64,000 nt of DNA from Blautia sp. GTDB lineage: Bacteria > Bacillota > Clostridia > Lachnospirales > Lachnospiraceae. Shown here piece by piece: positions 3,187 through 30,513 of this stretch. Where the stretch lies: assembly GCA_017463155.1 (NCBI GenBank), contig JAFTPT010000027.1, positions 62,001 to 126,000 of the forward strand, read 5' to 3'. Positions within the stretch are counted from its first letter, which is position 1; every line of letters begins with the position of its first letter. The notes under the pieces were generated by a model that did not search any database, was not told the origin of the DNA, and saw only the letters and a program-made list of their open reading frames with translations. The position numbers were made by a program, and so were the translations under genes.

Positions 3187-6100
3187 ATGAAAAGATCGAG
3201 AGCAGCGAGAGCAGCCGCATTGGCGATGGCGGTGACACTTTTGTTTCAGCAGGCGGACCTGACGGCCCTTGCCGAGGAAAGCCGGCAGGCAGAAGATGCG
3301 GTCAGCGTCATGGAGAGTGAAGAAATACCGGAGGAGTCTTACGAGGAGACTTCGGAGCAGGAGGATCTTTCGCAGGCGGCGGATGAGTCCTTCGCGGAGG
3401 AGCCGGAGCAGCAGGAAGCCGGCTTTGAAGAGGATGCGGATTATTCCGGAGAGGAATCCGAAGCGTTTACGGATGACCCCGACGAGGACCCATATGAAGA
3501 AGAGTTCGAAGACAGTCTCGGCGACGGGGAGGAAGAATTCCCGGACGAAGAGTTTGAAGAGGAGGAACTTTCCGAGGAAGAGGAGCTTTCCGGGGAGGAA
3601 GAAGAACTCTCCGGTGAGGAAGGCGAGCGGACCAGGCGGGTCTATACCTACTCGGACGATGCTGTCACGGTAAAGGCGACCCTGGAGGATCCGGCCGCCG
3701 TACCCGATGCCGCCGAGTTTTCCGTCCGGGAGATCACGCCCTACACCCGCGATTATAACTATGATGCCTATATGGGCAAGATCGATGAGCTGGTCGAGGA
3801 GGGCGTTCTGACCAATCTGAGCGATGAGTCCGCGGACGAGTCCGACGACCCGGCCGACAGTGCCTGGAGTGAGGGCCTGGGCGGCACTCTGCTCTACGAT
3901 ATTGCCTTCCTTGTGGACAAGACCGACGAGGAGGGAAACATCATTGAGGGTGAGAAGGTGGAGTACCAGCCGGAGCAGGGCTCCGTCACCATCGATTTCA
4001 CGTTCCATGAGAGCCAGCTTTCGGAGGACCTGACGGCGGCAGCAGCCGGTGAGGTGGAGGTCGTTCATCTTCCGCTTGCGGACGATATCATGGAGGAACT
4101 GGATACGACGGCGGACGCGGTCGATATCAGCAGCGCCGATGTCCTGGCAGAGGTTCTCAGCGCGGATGTGGATGTCGAGGCGGAAGGCGCCCGCCAGGAC
4201 GCTCTGTCCTTTACAACGGACAGCTTCTCGGTCTATGCATTCCGCACGACGGCGGGCCAGAAAAACTACTGGGCCGGCTCTTCTACCTACACGATGAACG
4301 ATGTCTATGCGATGATGGGGCAGGCTACGGACTTCTCGGTCGTAGCCAGGCAGCTGATCAGCTATTCCCACATCGAAGGTAATATCGCGGTAGAGACCTA
4401 CACAACCAAGGGAAACGCAGGCAACCTGAATGAAGGCGGCCGCCTGATCGCCGGGAACAAGGTGGTCAGGATCAATGTCAGCAAGAGCATCACAGGGGGA
4501 AGCGGAACCTTCCGCTACGGTGTGTTCACATCTCCCTCGACAAACCAGTCGGCGGATCAGGCGATCTATACATTTGAGATCACCGCGCCGGGAACCTTCC
4601 CTCTGACGGCTGATAATGCGCCGAACGTATTTGCCGCCCTGGAGTCAAAGCCGGTCTATATCTATGAGCTGGACGGAGCTACCGGAAGGATCGTGACGGA
4701 TAAGGGAAATGTCACCTCGACAGCCGGCCAAACCTTCCAGGTGACCTATCAGACCGGAAACCAGGTCAACAACACATCCCTTGAGAACTACATCGGTTAT
4801 CTTGATATCCCGGTTGATCTGCAGATCGGTTATAACTACTTTGGGCCGGAGGGCACGGTGACCTACTTTGGTTCCGGCTCGATCGATCAAAGTACAGGTC
4901 AGAACCAGAGTACGGTTTACAGGACACCGGATCATGCCGTGAGCATCGAAGGCAGGGGCGCCTGGACCACCACGCTCAATCCGTATGTAAAGGTATCCGA
5001 TGTCGTCATCCCGATGCTCGAGGGCGTCATGCAGAATCTGGAGGGCGCCTCGGCCATGCTGGCGAACGCGAAGAACGGACCGACCACGGCGAGCAAGGGG
5101 CTGAACGTCATCAACCTGATCTCGACGACCGGCAATCTGAAAAATGATCTGGACAACGCGAACTTCGAACAGATCTCTGCCCAGGGCAGCGACCTGTATC
5201 ATGGGCAGGGTATCAGTGGTCTGCTTGCGGATCCGGAGGAAAACAGCCAGTACCTCCTGATCAACATCGACGCAACGAACTTTGACACCTACAATCTGAC
5301 CCAGCTGAAGATCGACGGGTATACGCCGGACAGTGATAACCAGTTCTCACGGCTGTCCTCCCACCTGATCTTCAACTTTGTACAGAGAGATGCTTCCGGC
5401 AATTTTGTTCCCTATACCGGCACCGTGACCGGGCAGGAAGTCGTGGGCGGCCTGGTGCTGGCACCCGGCGCTTATGTGGACCAGCGAGGTGCCATGTTCG
5501 GTGAAGTGATCGGCAACGTTGTGGACCGCAGTAACGCGAGCGGTGAGATCCACAAAAAGACCATCACCAGCAAGGACCGGGAGGTCCAGGTCAGCATCGC
5601 GAACGCAGGGAACGCTACGACCGTCAGTCTGCAGGCAAAAAAGGAGTTTGCCGGTAGGACGCTGACCAGTGAGGATGGTTTTGCCTTTACGCTGCAGGGA
5701 GTCACCGGGTCGGAGCCGATGCCGGCCGGAGCAAATCCGACGACCGGCAAGCTGATGGCGATGGCCGCGGCGAGGAACAACTGGATTGCCTCCTTCGGAA
5801 ATATCAGTTATACCTCGGAAGGTACCTACCGGTACACGATCACGGAGGAACGGGGAGGCACCGTGCACAACGGGATCACCTACGATCCGGCCGTCTATGA
5901 TGTGACCGTAACTGTCCGGATGCAGGACGGGCGCCTGACGGCTGACAAGTCGATCGTCAAGCGTGGCTCGTCCGGAAATGTTCAGGAGCCGGTGCCGTTC
6001 CGGAATACCTATGAGGCTGTCGGAAAAGTACGGCCCCATTCCTCCAAGGAGCTGAAAGGGCGTACCCTTACGGCCGGACAGTTCTCGTTTGTCCTGCAGG

Positions 6101-26747: not shown

Positions 26748-27689
26748 TTACACAGCCGCGAGGACATGCATATTCCGAAGGACCGCATCCTTCACATGGT
26801 CATTGACGGCGTAGGCGTGGGCTTCCAGCTCGCTGTCGGGAATGTTCGACAGGGACTGATCCGCAAGGTGGTCCGAGATCACGACGGCGATCTCCTCGAT
26901 CCGGGCGGCTTTGGCCGGACAAAGCTCCGGGCTGTTGTCCGTTGTGAGAAGCCAGGAGAGTGGTTCCGCGAGGTCAGAGAACTGCGGGAGAGCGCACAGC
27001 GCGCGGAACGTCCATTTGTAGTAGGGCTGGTAGGTGGAATTCAGAAGAAAGATGACGCTGATCGTGCTTTTCACGAATTCACAGACCGCCAGCTGGGCGG
27101 CGGCCGGTTCGTTGTGCCGGAGACACCGGGCGTAGTTGTACTGGCCGGCCTGCCCCATGAGCAGCAGATATCCGGCCAGCCTTTTGAGGCGGACATCCTC
27201 CGGGTAGTACCGAAGCGCCGCCCGGATGCGGGTCATGGCGCCTTCGTTGTCAAAAAAGATCTCGCCTTTGGTGGCTTCGAGGAGCGACTGCTCCGGGACG
27301 GTCAGCCACTGCTGCAGCGTCAGATCACCGTCCGGGGATCCGGTCTTTGCCATAAAGAATTCCTCCGTCCGGAGGACGCCGTGCCGGTTTCCGCCGACGG
27401 GGGAGAGGGCCGGCCGGGCAAAACCTTTGTACTCTTTGGGAAGCTTTGCGTAGGCCCGTTCCAGCTGAAAAGCACTTCGCCTGTCCACCACGTCTTCTCC
27501 GGGCAGAAAGAGGCAGAAGCCGGGTGCGAAATCATGGTCCTGTGAGATGTCGTCGTCGTAGCCGGAGCATTCCGACCCGCTGCCGATCAGGCCGGCAGCC
27601 AGATGAGGGAGCAGTTGGGGGAACTGTTCCTCCAGCATGGGTTTTCCGAATTCTTCAAAATAAGACCGGGAGAGTTCAAGTCCGTTCAT
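26748..27689 (-). CDS. DUF4037 nucleotidyltransferase-like protein
   Basis: A 313-residue protein whose N-terminal part contains GLIGSGSECSGYDDDISQDHDF (residues about 34-55), resembling the GS and DxD signature of the polymerase-beta nucleotidyltransferase fold, followed by a helical C-terminal half. DUF4037 proteins are found beside TPR or regulator genes, and their substrate is unknown. The start lies inside the end of the upstream TPR gene (14-bp overlap), so the two are translationally coupled. It could modify a small molecule or RNA; this is inference. Confidence 0.75.
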   Translation of the reverse strand: MNGLELSRSYFEEFGKPMLEEQFPQLLPHLAAGLIGSGSECSGYDDDISQDHDFAPGFCLFLPGEDVVDRRSAFQLERAYAKLPKEYKGFARPALSPVGGNRHGVLRTEEFFMAKTGSPDGDLTLQQWLTVPEQSLLEATKGEIFFDNEGAMTRIRAALRYYPEDVRLKRLAGYLLLMGQAGQYNYARCLRHNEPAAAQLAVCEFVKSTISVIFLLNSTYQPYYKWTFRALCALPQFSDLAEPLSWLLTTDNSPELCPAKAARIEEIAVVISDHLADQSLSNIPDSELEAHAYAVNDHVKDAVLRNMHVLAAV

Positions 27690-28437
27690 AGATTATCCTC
27701 GCTTCTTCCCGCAGCTCGGCTGCCACAGCAAACCAGCCATGGTAGGCAAAACCGGGCGCGCATTTTTCACATACAAAGGCGTAGTAGCCGTCCCGGGGAA
27801 TGGACGGGTCCTGCAGCAGTTCACAGGCGTGGTCCAGGAGCTCCTGAATCCGGGTTTCCGCCTCCTGCATGCCTTCCGACAGAGCGATCGCGTCCGCCAT
27901 ATTCAGGCAGGTGATGGCCTGCTCCGGGGCACTGCCGGGAAGGCCTTCAAGAAGCGTCATGGCTTTCTGGTACAGGTCCATGGCCTGCGGATACTGTCCG
28001 AGGTTCTGGAAGGCCAGCGCCATGTTGTTGTACAGCCCGCTCATCAGGTCCGGAGAAATGGCGGGATCCTTCTCGTAGATCACAAGCGCTTTCTCAAAAA
28101 GAGAGAGTGCTTTTTCATTTTCACCGAAAGCACTTAAGGCGGTCGCGGCGTTGATGTATGTGGTGCCGCCGGAGGGTGAGTCTTCGAGAGAAAGGGCCGA
28201 AAGGAGGGACAGGGCGTCATCAATGTAGGTGAAGGCTTCTTTACGAAGACCCGATTTGCGGCAGTGGCCGATCAGCTCGTTTAGGAGGGACAATTCGCCC
28301 TGCCGGTCTCCGGAGAGTCTCGCCTCCGACAGCCAGTAGGTGAGGAGCCGTCCGGCACCCTCATAGTCACGCCTGTCCATATAGGCATTCAGTTTTTCCA
28401 TGATCCGCGGGAGCGGGATCCGTGCGGTCGTCTGCAT
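27676..28437 (-). CDS. TPR-repeat protein coupled to the DUF4037 gene
   Basis: A 253-residue cytoplasmic helical-repeat protein. The repeats are clearest around TTYINAATALSAFGENEKALSLFEKAL and LYNNMALAFQNLGQYPQAMDLYQKAM (residues about 95-165). TPR arrays serve as protein-binding scaffolds. The ATG read from 28437 has AAGGA 11 nt upstream on the minus strand. A candidate promoter lies at 28497-28525. The overlap with DUF4037 suggests that the two products form a complex. Confidence 0.75.
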   Translation of the reverse strand: MQTTARIPLPRIMEKLNAYMDRRDYEGAGRLLTYWLSEARLSGDRQGELSLLNELIGHCRKSGLRKEAFTYIDDALSLLSALSLEDSPSGGTTYINAATALSAFGENEKALSLFEKALVIYEKDPAISPDLMSGLYNNMALAFQNLGQYPQAMDLYQKAMTLLEGLPGSAPEQAITCLNMADAIALSEGMQEAETRIQELLDHACELLQDPSIPRDGYYAFVCEKCAPGFAYHGWFAVAAELREEARIIYERT

Positions 28438-28525: not shown

Positions 28526-28579
28526 GGGATTGAGAAAGAACTGAGAAAGGAACAGAAAGGGCTTGCTAAAAAGAACAAT

Positions 28580-28609
28580 TTGCGCTATCATATAAAGAAA
28601 ATGTATAAT
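28580..28609 (+). promoter_or_regulatory. Promoter reading into the recombinase element
   Basis: TATAAT at 28604-28609 with TTGCGC at 28580-28585 (18-bp spacer). Transcription would begin near 28616, cross the left inverted repeat at 28659 and continue toward the recombinase. The promoter lies outside the segment bounded by the repeats, so inversion of that segment would uncouple it from the recombinase gene. The rest of 28438-28944 shows no gene. Confidence 0.5.
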
Positions 28610-28658: not shown

Positions 28659-28683
28659 CGTCGTAGAGTACCTTACTACACGA
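28659..28683 (+). repeat. Left 25-bp inverted repeat
   Basis: It contains GAGTACCTTACTACACGA at 28666-28683. It pairs with the right repeat in 24 of 25 positions; the only mismatch is at 28665. It lies about 50 bp downstream of a TATAAT box and 260 bp before the recombinase start. Confidence 0.85.
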
Positions 28684-28944
28684 ACGGACGACCCTGATAT
28701 CATCTTACCGAACCTGTCGAAATCTGTCAATTGCTCCGGAAAACAGACAGATGGGTTTCCTGGAAAACGCAATATTATATGTAAAATTCATCTGCTTCCA
28801 TGAAGGAGCAATGGTTTCGACTGAGCTGAAGAATGGCCTTACACTCCAATAAGCGTAAGATGTATGACGTCGTTGCATTGACATTTCATGACATTACCAG
28901 AAATCAGCCGTCATTTACTCGTCCTTTGGAAAGGAGATCTGACA

Positions 28945-30090
28945 ATGTCAAGAAAGGGAGAAAACATTTACAAGCGCAAGGACGGAAGGTGGGAGGGTCG
29001 TTTTGCCAAGGCCCGCCGTCCGGATGGGAGAATCCAGTACGGATATGTATATGCCGGGAGTTATCAGGCCGCCAGGCAAAAGCTCAAAGAGGCAGCTGCC
29101 TGTTATCATACCGGGAGAGCATCTTCGGCAGTCCTCAGCAGCGAAGAAAGCGCCCCGCTCGGCGGCATTCTCGAAAACTGGCTGCGCATACTCAAGCCGC
29201 AGATCAAGGAATCCACCTATAATAAATACCGGAACGCGATCCGCCTGTATATTGTACCGTTCTTTCAGGAACGATCCGTCTCTTCGATCAGGGATGCCGA
29301 TCTGGAAGAATTCTGTTTATACCTGCTGACAAAAGCCGGCAGCCGCAAGACAGGCTTATCGTCCAAATCAGCGGCCGATACCTTCTCGATCCTGCGGAAT
29401 GTCCTGGCTTTTGCAGAACGCAGCGGATTCCGGCTCCAATGCGGAACGCGGAGTGCGTTCATCCGTCGCGAGCCTGCAAGAATGCGGATCCTGAGCCACG
29501 AGGAGCAGCGCATCCTCTGCCGGTATCTTCGCAGCGAACCTGATCCCCGTAACCTGGGTATTCTTCTCAGTCTCTTTACGGGCCTTCGGATCGGAGAACT
29601 CTGCGCTCTTCGCTGGGGGGATCTTTCTCTGACGGAGCGGACCCTGCATGTACATGCAACCCTGCAGCGGATTCAGGAGACTGGTGAGACAGCCGGTCCC
29701 AAAACCAGGATCGTGATCTCATCCCCAAAGAGCCGGTCTTCGATCCGCAGCATCCCGATCCCTGAACCCGTCGCCCTGCTTCTTGCAGAGGCCGTATGCC
29801 GGGATGATGCATATGTGCTTACCGGCCTGGGGCATTATGTGGAACCGCGGAGCATGCAGCGGTATTTTCATACGGTCCTTCAAAAACTGGGAATCAAGGA
29901 GATGAACTTTCACGGGCTTCGGCATACCTTTGCCACCCGGTGTGTGGAGGCCGGGTTTGATGTCAAAAGCCTCAGCGAGATTCTGGGACATGCGGGAGTA
30001 ACCGTGACAATGAACCGGTACGTTCATCCGACTATGGAAATGAAGAGGAAAAACATGGAAAGACTCTCTGGCTTATTAGCCGTCAGCTGA
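28945..30090 (+). CDS. Tyrosine recombinase (phage integrase family)
   Basis: A 381-residue site-specific recombinase. Residues 1-60 are an arm-type DNA-binding region (GENIYKRKDGRWEGRF), 75-165 a SAM-like core-binding domain, and 190-370 the catalytic domain with Arg215 (GLRIGE), His323 and Arg326 (HGLRHTF), His349 (LGHAG) and the nucleophile Tyr359 (NRYVHP), so it should be active. GAAAGGAG precedes the ATG at 28945. It is the only gene between two 25-bp inverted repeats. No excisionase, replication or conjugation gene is present, which argues against a complete integrative element and for a DNA-inversion or relic role. Confidence 0.9.
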   Translation: MSRKGENIYKRKDGRWEGRFAKARRPDGRIQYGYVYAGSYQAARQKLKEAAACYHTGRASSAVLSSEESAPLGGILENWLRILKPQIKESTYNKYRNAIRLYIVPFFQERSVSSIRDADLEEFCLYLLTKAGSRKTGLSSKSAADTFSILRNVLAFAERSGFRLQCGTRSAFIRREPARMRILSHEEQRILCRYLRSEPDPRNLGILLSLFTGLRIGELCALRWGDLSLTERTLHVHATLQRIQETGETAGPKTRIVISSPKSRSSIRSIPIPEPVALLLAEAVCRDDAYVLTGLGHYVEPRSMQRYFHTVLQKLGIKEMNFHGLRHTFATRCVEAGFDVKSLSEILGHAGVTVTMNRYVHPTMEMKRKNMERLSGLLAVS

Positions 30091-30144
30091 GATCGTCAGA
30101 AGTATCCGAACAGCATCTGATTTCGGGAATTCATGGATGCATCC

Positions 30145-30169
30145 TCGTGTAGTAAGGTACTCAACGACG
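30145..30169 (-). repeat. Right 25-bp inverted repeat
   Basis: It contains TCGTGTAGTAAGGTACTC at 30145-30162, the reverse complement of the left copy apart from one base. It lies 55 bp after the recombinase stop and 52 bp before the Phd-like gene. Confidence 0.85.
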
Positions 30170-30220: not shown

Positions 30221-30418
30221 ATGCCTACGATTTTGCCCGTTTCCGATCTGCGTACCTACACCGAAGTGCTGCGGCGATGCCAGCCGGGCGAGATGGTCTA
30301 CCTGACCAGAAACGGCCGCGGTAAATACGTGCTGATGGAGATCAGCGACTATGAGAAGCTGGAACAGGCCGGGAAACAACGGAGGAGCGACGGCCTGCCG
30401 GACAATCAGACAGAGTAA
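30221..30418 (+). CDS. Phd/YefM-type antitoxin without a visible toxin
   Basis: A 65-residue protein with the Phd/YefM layout: ILPVSDLRTYTEVLRRC, a GEMVYLTRNGRGKYVLM beta-hairpin and ISDYEKLEQ. Family members bind DNA as dimers and neutralise a RelE/ParE or Doc toxin usually encoded directly downstream. Here a REP-like palindrome and a gene on the other strand follow, so no partner exists in place. GAAGGATGGAA precedes the ATG. Either the toxin was lost when the repeat arrived, or the protein acts as a lone regulator of the adjacent recombinase element. Confidence 0.8.
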   Translation: MPTILPVSDLRTYTEVLRRCQPGEMVYLTRNGRGKYVLMEISDYEKLEQAGKQRRSDGLPDNQTE

Positions 30419-30428
30419 CACAACAAGA

Positions 30429-30513
30429 AAAGGGACGGTTCTCGACAAGACAGGGGACGGTTCTGTGTCTTGTTTGACAAAGCAAACAAGACACAGAACC
30501 GTCCCCTGTCTTG
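30429..30513. repeat. REP-like palindrome, copy 5, with a truncated extra half
   Basis: Perfect 31-bp arms at 30446-30476 and 30483-30513 flank ACAAAG. A further partial copy, AAGGGACGGTTCTC, precedes it at 30430-30443. The full hairpin is nearly identical to the one at 26668-26737. It lies between the antitoxin and the convergent membrane-protein gene. Confidence 0.92.

Follow-up and report, generated by a model that had tools for sequence, protein, structure and literature searches.

A 64,000-nucleotide stretch of a Blautia sp. genome (the window) contains a tyrosine recombinase gene lying by itself between two short inverted repeats. This arrangement raises the question of what such a segment does: does the recombinase invert the DNA that encodes it, and if so, the expression of which genes would depend on the orientation? 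An initial annotation had read the locus as a candidate DNA switch in which an outside promoter transcribes either the recombinase or, after inversion, its antisense strand, so that the recombinase could silence itself.

The recombinase gene and its flanking repeats

The repeats, at 28659-28683 and 30145-30169, are separated by a gap of 1461 nt and are complementary at 24 of 25 positions, just as the initial annotation had described them. When the 3.07-Mb genome of the window (55 contigs, approximately 92% complete) was searched for the site with up to three mismatches, matches were found at these two places only, and a reversed-sequence control gave 0 matches; a chance origin of the repeat pair is therefore very unlikely. 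As in an inverton, the segment is enclosed by short inverted recombination sites, each of which forms part of a 27-bp core (Table 1).

The only recognised gene between the repeats is, as had been claimed, a tyrosine recombinase (Phage_integrase, 2e-23). Its start is likely the ATG at 28945, which lies downstream of AAAGGAG and is consistent with the family alignment, and the previously assigned catalytic residues (R215, H323, R326, H349 and Y359) are correct when numbered from this codon. Of the sequences in the family alignment, 79 in all, 77 have each of these residues and two have gaps at those positions. The catalytic domain is of the Tn916/Tn1549 type, and the nearest solved structures by sequence (6en0, 6emy and 6emz, 'Int protein', E about 1e-16) are presumably those of the Tn1549 integrase. 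Against the NCBIfam model for tyrosine-type DNA invertases the protein scores 20 bits, the cut-off being 221. No Pfam arm-binding domain was matched in the recombinase, although CGTCA-type direct repeats are present at the locus.

A search for a terminator between the recombinase and the right core of the window found none. Farther out, downstream of the Phd-like ORF, a perfect 31-bp hairpin with a loop of 6 occupies positions 30446-30513. It is a dispersed REP-like repeat, with more copies at G000:C27:88669 and G000:C33:30376 and diverged versions in other genomes.

Table 1. Features of the recombinase locus and its neighbours, in window coordinates.
Feature	Position	Strand	Basis
DUF4037 protein gene; overlaps the end of the TPR gene, probably co-transcribed	26748..27689	-	ORF list, domain search
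TPR protein gene, 221 bp from the left core; candidate target as presently oriented	27676..28437	-	ORF list, domain search
Left 27-bp core recombination site; a spacer between two half-sites that mirror each other imperfectly	28659..28685	+	Repeat comparison, genome search, family core alignment
Left crossover spacer TACCTTA; same as the right spacer in inverted orientation	28669..28675	+	Core alignment
Outward promoter-like site TTGACA-17-TAAGAT, directed leftward across the left core to the TPR/DUF4037 genes	28702..28730	-	Family-conserved place
CGTCA motif before the gene; putative arm-type site	28909..28913	+	Family motif count
AAAGGAG; likely ribosome-binding site of the recombinase	28930..28936	+	Sequence inspection
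Tyrosine recombinase gene, 381 aa; catalytic residues intact	28945..30090	+	ORF list, domain and structure searches, family alignment
Pair of CGTCA motifs, spaced 13 bp, at the stop codon; putative arm-type sites	30081..30098	+	Family motif count
Right 27-bp core site; opposite in orientation to the left core	30143..30169	-	Repeat comparison, genome search, core alignment
Right crossover spacer; TAAGGTA on the + strand	30153..30159	-	Core alignment
Phd/YefM-like ORF, 65 aa; candidate target after inversion, 51 bp from the right core	30221..30418	+	ORF list, domain search

Core sites, promoters and repeated motifs across the family

Our family set consisted of 80 relatives, the best among at least 566 that were confirmed, together with nine from IMG/VR; after removal of five duplicates of the locus L057 and one viral duplicate, and with the window's own locus added, it comprised 84 distinct loci, which occur in very different genomic contexts. 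The recombinase gene lies between inverted repeats in 63 of the 84 (in one of them, L116, the repeat is not core-like). Repeats were undetected in the remaining 21, 10 of which have short flanks at contig ends, and nine of 17 repeat-less loci that were scanned retain a core-like site on the right only. Two viral-contig relatives of L057 (L148 and L149) have the right core only, and a scan of L148 for a left core found none.

The core sites of 59 loci, including the window, could be aligned as 11 + 5 + 11 bp with mirror symmetry (TTTCGTAGAGT-N5-ACTCTACGAAA); L113 and L118, which have very long flanking repeats, L078, whose contig ends within the repeat, and L116, which has no core-like site, were dropped before this count. 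In all 59 core pairs the central 7 bp of the left site equal those of the right site in inverted orientation, and the 160 left/right differences all fall outside these 7 bp. The spacers themselves vary from locus to locus, with 44 distinct sequences among the 59 loci and none of them palindromic. With shuffled partners the mean identity was 54%, and exact matches averaged 1.65 and numbered at most 7. Direct repeats in homologous loci, named by the initial annotation as a possible refutation of a switch, did not appear among these core pairs: an exact spacer match in direct orientation, as in the attachment sites of Tn916/Tn1549, occurred in 0 of 59. Spacers that are locus-specific, identical and inverted are what recombination between the two sites of one locus would leave, and core sites of this kind are suited to inversion. 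Paired cores were present in 21 of 42 further distinct loci and the central 7 bp match in 21/21, the pairs having been chosen at 20 or more of 27 positions identical, which favours a 7-bp match and does not force it. The other 21, several of which have more diverged recombinases, lack paired cores of this type.

Just inside the left core, on the minus strand and reading outward, 56 of the 59 loci carry a sigma-70-type promoter (TTGACA-16/18-TATAAT with at most two mismatches), compared with 7.8 expected from dinucleotide shuffles; in 49 of the 59 it has at most one mismatch. This outward promoter is conserved in the family and was overlooked in the initial annotation. On the strand toward the recombinase, the same left-end stretch holds a promoter in 9/59 loci versus 5.6 expected, and the family alignment suggests no clearly conserved promoter that would drive the recombinase. 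The initial annotation had placed a promoter outside the left repeat, at 28580-28609, reading into the segment. It does have a perfect TATAAT, but the site as a whole is weak: its -35 hexamer agrees at 3/6 positions by eye, and the promoter scanner omits it, placing a 9-of-12 promoter-like site at 28563-28591 instead. Nor is such an inward promoter a family trait, since outside the left core a promoter reading in was found in 3/59 loci versus 3.4 expected. The 21 further loci are less regular, with the outward promoter in 13 and the inward one in 3. In the window, the -10 hexamer of the outward promoter carries two mismatches, and because the window alone gave two scanner matches against a shuffle mean of 1.6, which is not above chance, the case for its promoter depends on the family-conserved place.

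Short motifs of the form [CG]GTC[AT] closely precede the start codon in 51 of the 59 loci and lie at or near the stop codon in 55, compared with 7 and 5, respectively, in the reverse-strand control. Where repeated, they are mostly spaced 12 or 13 bp apart, and both clusters point in the same direction along the element. These CGTCA-type direct repeats are probably bound by the N-terminal part of the recombinase and may set directionality. A hairpin followed by T residues was found downstream of the recombinase in 30/59 loci, counted without a shuffled control.

Orientation of related loci and their neighbours

The expectation that related loci would be found in both orientations was borne out. 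In G743, paralogous loci on contigs C17 and C8 adjoin a gene for a helicase-like protein (ORFs of 760 and 757 aa). Aligned in one direction, their elements are 95.0% identical over 1431 bp, and each flank (91.8% identical over 2523 bp on one side, 93.5% over 248 bp on the other) then matches in the opposite direction. The outer half-sites (TTTCGTAG and CTTCGCAG) remain with the flanks and the inner halves remain with the element, which places the exchange point within the core. G037 and G022 share the same core spacer and have elements 72% identical. Homologous helicase genes, encoding 694 and 693 aa, adjoin the element on one side in G037 and on the other in G022, at distances of 40 and 41 bp from the core; the remaining flanks are unmatched. 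A single conserved flank lies at opposite ends of the element in L057 versus L148 (the latter without left core), in L064 versus L073, and in the two G540 loci.

Closely related copies present another picture. Among pairs that are at least 75% identical or matched in both flanks, 17 have the same orientation and 2 the opposite (L045/L047 and L057/L148), a count made with all loci turned to match and omitting the re-fetched genomes (rows L027-L055 of a separate listing, in which loci were left unturned, did not enter it); the other opposite-orientation pairs of the family comparison are 66-74% identical. Close pairs from different genomes thus mostly share orientation, which is evidence against free flipping. 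Same-species pairs came from plasmid and phage collections. A distant relative in three Enterococcus raffinosus strains is 99.6% identical and in the same orientation; a fourth strain, at 82.7% identity, aligns along a single strand for 92% of the query, and just 19% is matched in a fifth. The second E. raffinosus locus was found in one further strain, 99.2% identical and in a single piece. The L057-type element has the same orientation in six GTDB records and one gut phage contig. Within L057-L062, the element plus at least positions 3233-5561 of the locus is identical in records of six species, so this element sits on a mobile element common to them; downstream, L057 carries a gene for an erm(B)-type methylase.

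The nearest right-hand ORF points away from the element in 63/76 and the nearest left-hand ORF in 32/76, counted across 79 loci on mechanical ORFs of at least 60 aa, some of them spurious and with the window's own neighbours misassigned. Since the promoter points left and the right-hand ORFs point outward, most assemblies show a right neighbour that is not driven by the promoter. Most assemblies are therefore in one state, which we read as a preference for OFF; another role of the promoter is possible.

The neighbours in the window are as had been claimed: a Phd/YefM-like ORF on the right (29.4 bits, Pfam cut-off 29.8) and, on the left, a TPR and DUF4037 gene pair reading leftward away from the element. 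The suggestion that their expression could depend on orientation was right in kind, as the conserved promoter reads outward, and both neighbours remain candidates. The similarity of the Phd-like ORF to its longer homologues is confined to roughly their first 50 residues, and this apparent shortening makes its value as a target doubtful. PADLOC gave no defence match for the four window proteins apart from a weak TPR match.

Domain scans across the family covered 38 of 46 right-hand and 18 of 26 left-hand outward ORFs, those omitted being mostly short. The commonest neighbours were helix-turn-helix regulators (7/38 right, 5/18 left), followed by TnpB/Cas12f-like proteins (3 right, 2 left). Dynamin-like GTPases, NRPS-type domains, FHA, YukD, sugar transferase, S-layer, TadZ and SpaA-fold proteins occurred in ones and twos, and in two loci the first gene encodes a LoaP-type antiterminator, with a score just above the NCBIfam cut-off in one case and below it in the other. 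A TnpB/Cas12f-like cluster joins 12 neighbour ORFs of ten loci (L097, L098, L101, L103, L106, L107, L108, L110, L113 and L118), the L107 ORF matching NF040570 at 2.9e-14, below the cut-off; these neighbours are possibly a phase-variable RNA-guided nuclease. In L113, 457 bp outside the element form perfect inverted repeats, with TnpB-like ORFs of 455 aa on one side and 180 aa on the other. A helicase with helicase-associated or restriction-like domains recurs beside the switch in L218, L219, L237, L238 and L239, which suggests a phase-variable defence-like protein.

A probable invertible promoter and its place among known systems

Judged from its sequence and that of its relatives, the segment at 28659-30169 is very probably an invertible promoter cassette encoding its own recombinase. 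This confidence covers the design of the element, and is slightly lowered because the window promoter alone is not above chance. We propose that the recombinase would bind the two inverted cores and that strand exchange within the identical spacers would flip the 1.5-kb segment. In the present orientation the TPR/DUF4037 genes would lie in the path of the internal left-end promoter, which faces left; inversion would turn it rightward, to face the Phd-like ORF. As the conserved promoter points out, the element most likely switches its neighbours rather than itself. For the window strain we infer flipping, promoter activity, the role of the arm sites and the effect on the neighbours.

The invertible switch of the initial annotation is thus well supported as far as inversion goes, given the identical inverted spacers and the homologous loci in both orientations, but its self-silencing logic is not supported. 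That the outside promoter drives the recombinase, or its antisense when inverted, we consider very improbable: inward promoters outside the left repeat are at chance level and the conserved promoter faces the opposite way through that repeat, even though a perfect TATAAT lies just to the left and some read-through from outside is conceivable because the family showed no conserved promoter within the element that would serve the recombinase. Less improbable, and still quite unlikely, is a single-gene transposon that moves as a unit, with the repeats as its ends and inversion not its function. The diversity of contexts would fit such an element, as would the TPR/DUF4037 pair that we found in three genomes without recombinase or core within the 3.2-4.0 kb examined, although from these three element-free loci (one with the gene order swapped, on a contig of just 3.2 kb) no clean empty site, the refutation foreseen initially, could be drawn. 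However, both ends are complete mirrored cores whose spacer is locus-specific, equal at both ends and inverted; fixed transposon ends would have one sequence across loci, and the sites of an integrating and excising element would match directly, which none of the 59 do. Some copies in G743 and G540 also share flanks, flipped or in the same orientation, rather than standing bare at new places (for G210, G114 and G719 the divergence between copies is too great to judge), and the window genome has one copy at the DNA level and a 37% protein relative without paired repeats.

A third alternative overlaps with the preferred reading, namely that the element is an invertible cassette by descent which no longer flips in this strain. 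The half-site mismatch between the arms, the weaker -10 and the shortened Phd-like ORF on one side are in line with such a locked relic, whereas the recombinase is intact with all catalytic residues present, the spacers are identical, and comparable half-site differences are frequent among its relatives; we regard it as rather unlikely, though the most probable of the alternatives.

As a probable invertible promoter cassette, the element has a counterpart in the Hin (H) segment behind flagellar phase variation in Salmonella, which has an outward promoter inside it, where the window has a promoter-like sequence at the family-conserved place; both are bounded by short inverted sites. In both, the recombinase gene lies inside the segment, as described for Hin (PMC5903667). 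Hin belongs to the serine recombinases and works with an enhancer bound by Fis (PMC3798978), whereas the window element uses an integrase-type tyrosine recombinase (Phage_integrase, catalytic R-H-R-H-Y) with arm-like repeats. FimB/FimE with fimS and RecV of Clostridioides difficile resemble it in combining a tyrosine recombinase, inverted repeats and an invertible control segment. In these systems the gene lies outside a small invertible segment, and the recombinases are shorter and lack the N-terminal arm-binding part. The Tn1549/Tn916-type integrases are alike in sequence; the window differs in its inverted sites, its single recognised gene, and the lack of conjugative or excision genes inside. 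Inverton group 139 (invertase group 35) of hCom2 comprises 33 invertons, 32 of them from Clostridia and nearly all near a tyrosine-type recombinase, according to the available part of PMC11892184. That part leaves unstated whether the recombinase lies inside the invertons, and the likeness is one of description, not motif; the group is possibly the same or a related family.

Searches of open-licence papers turned up no account of a clostridial family of tyrosine recombinases encoded within an invertible promoter segment of their own. Hin-like invertible promoters are known; an integrase-type tyrosine recombinase inside one is a new variation, to which inverton group 139 may be related. Inverton surveys based on short repeat spans may miss switches of this size.

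We suggest tentatively, with somewhat more doubt than confidence, that the family serves gut Clostridia as a portable module for phase variation, a self-sufficient flip cassette made of recombinase, sites, promoter and often a terminator-like hairpin, whose spacers limit cross-recombination. If this is true, the module would have been installed upstream of LoaP-led, NRPS-like, YukD/TadZ secretion or pilus, TnpB-like and restriction-like helicase genes, and its locus-specific spacers, kept identical by flipping, would stop most cassettes of the same cell from recombining together. The family comparison supplies the crossover position, the promoter and its direction, and would make the prediction checkable in existing read sets. 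As 73 of the 397 genomes sampled from Lachnospiraceae, the family to which the window belongs, encode a relative of the recombinase (E ≤ 1e-60), many genes of gut Clostridia annotated as 'site-specific integrase' may be invertases that control their neighbours.
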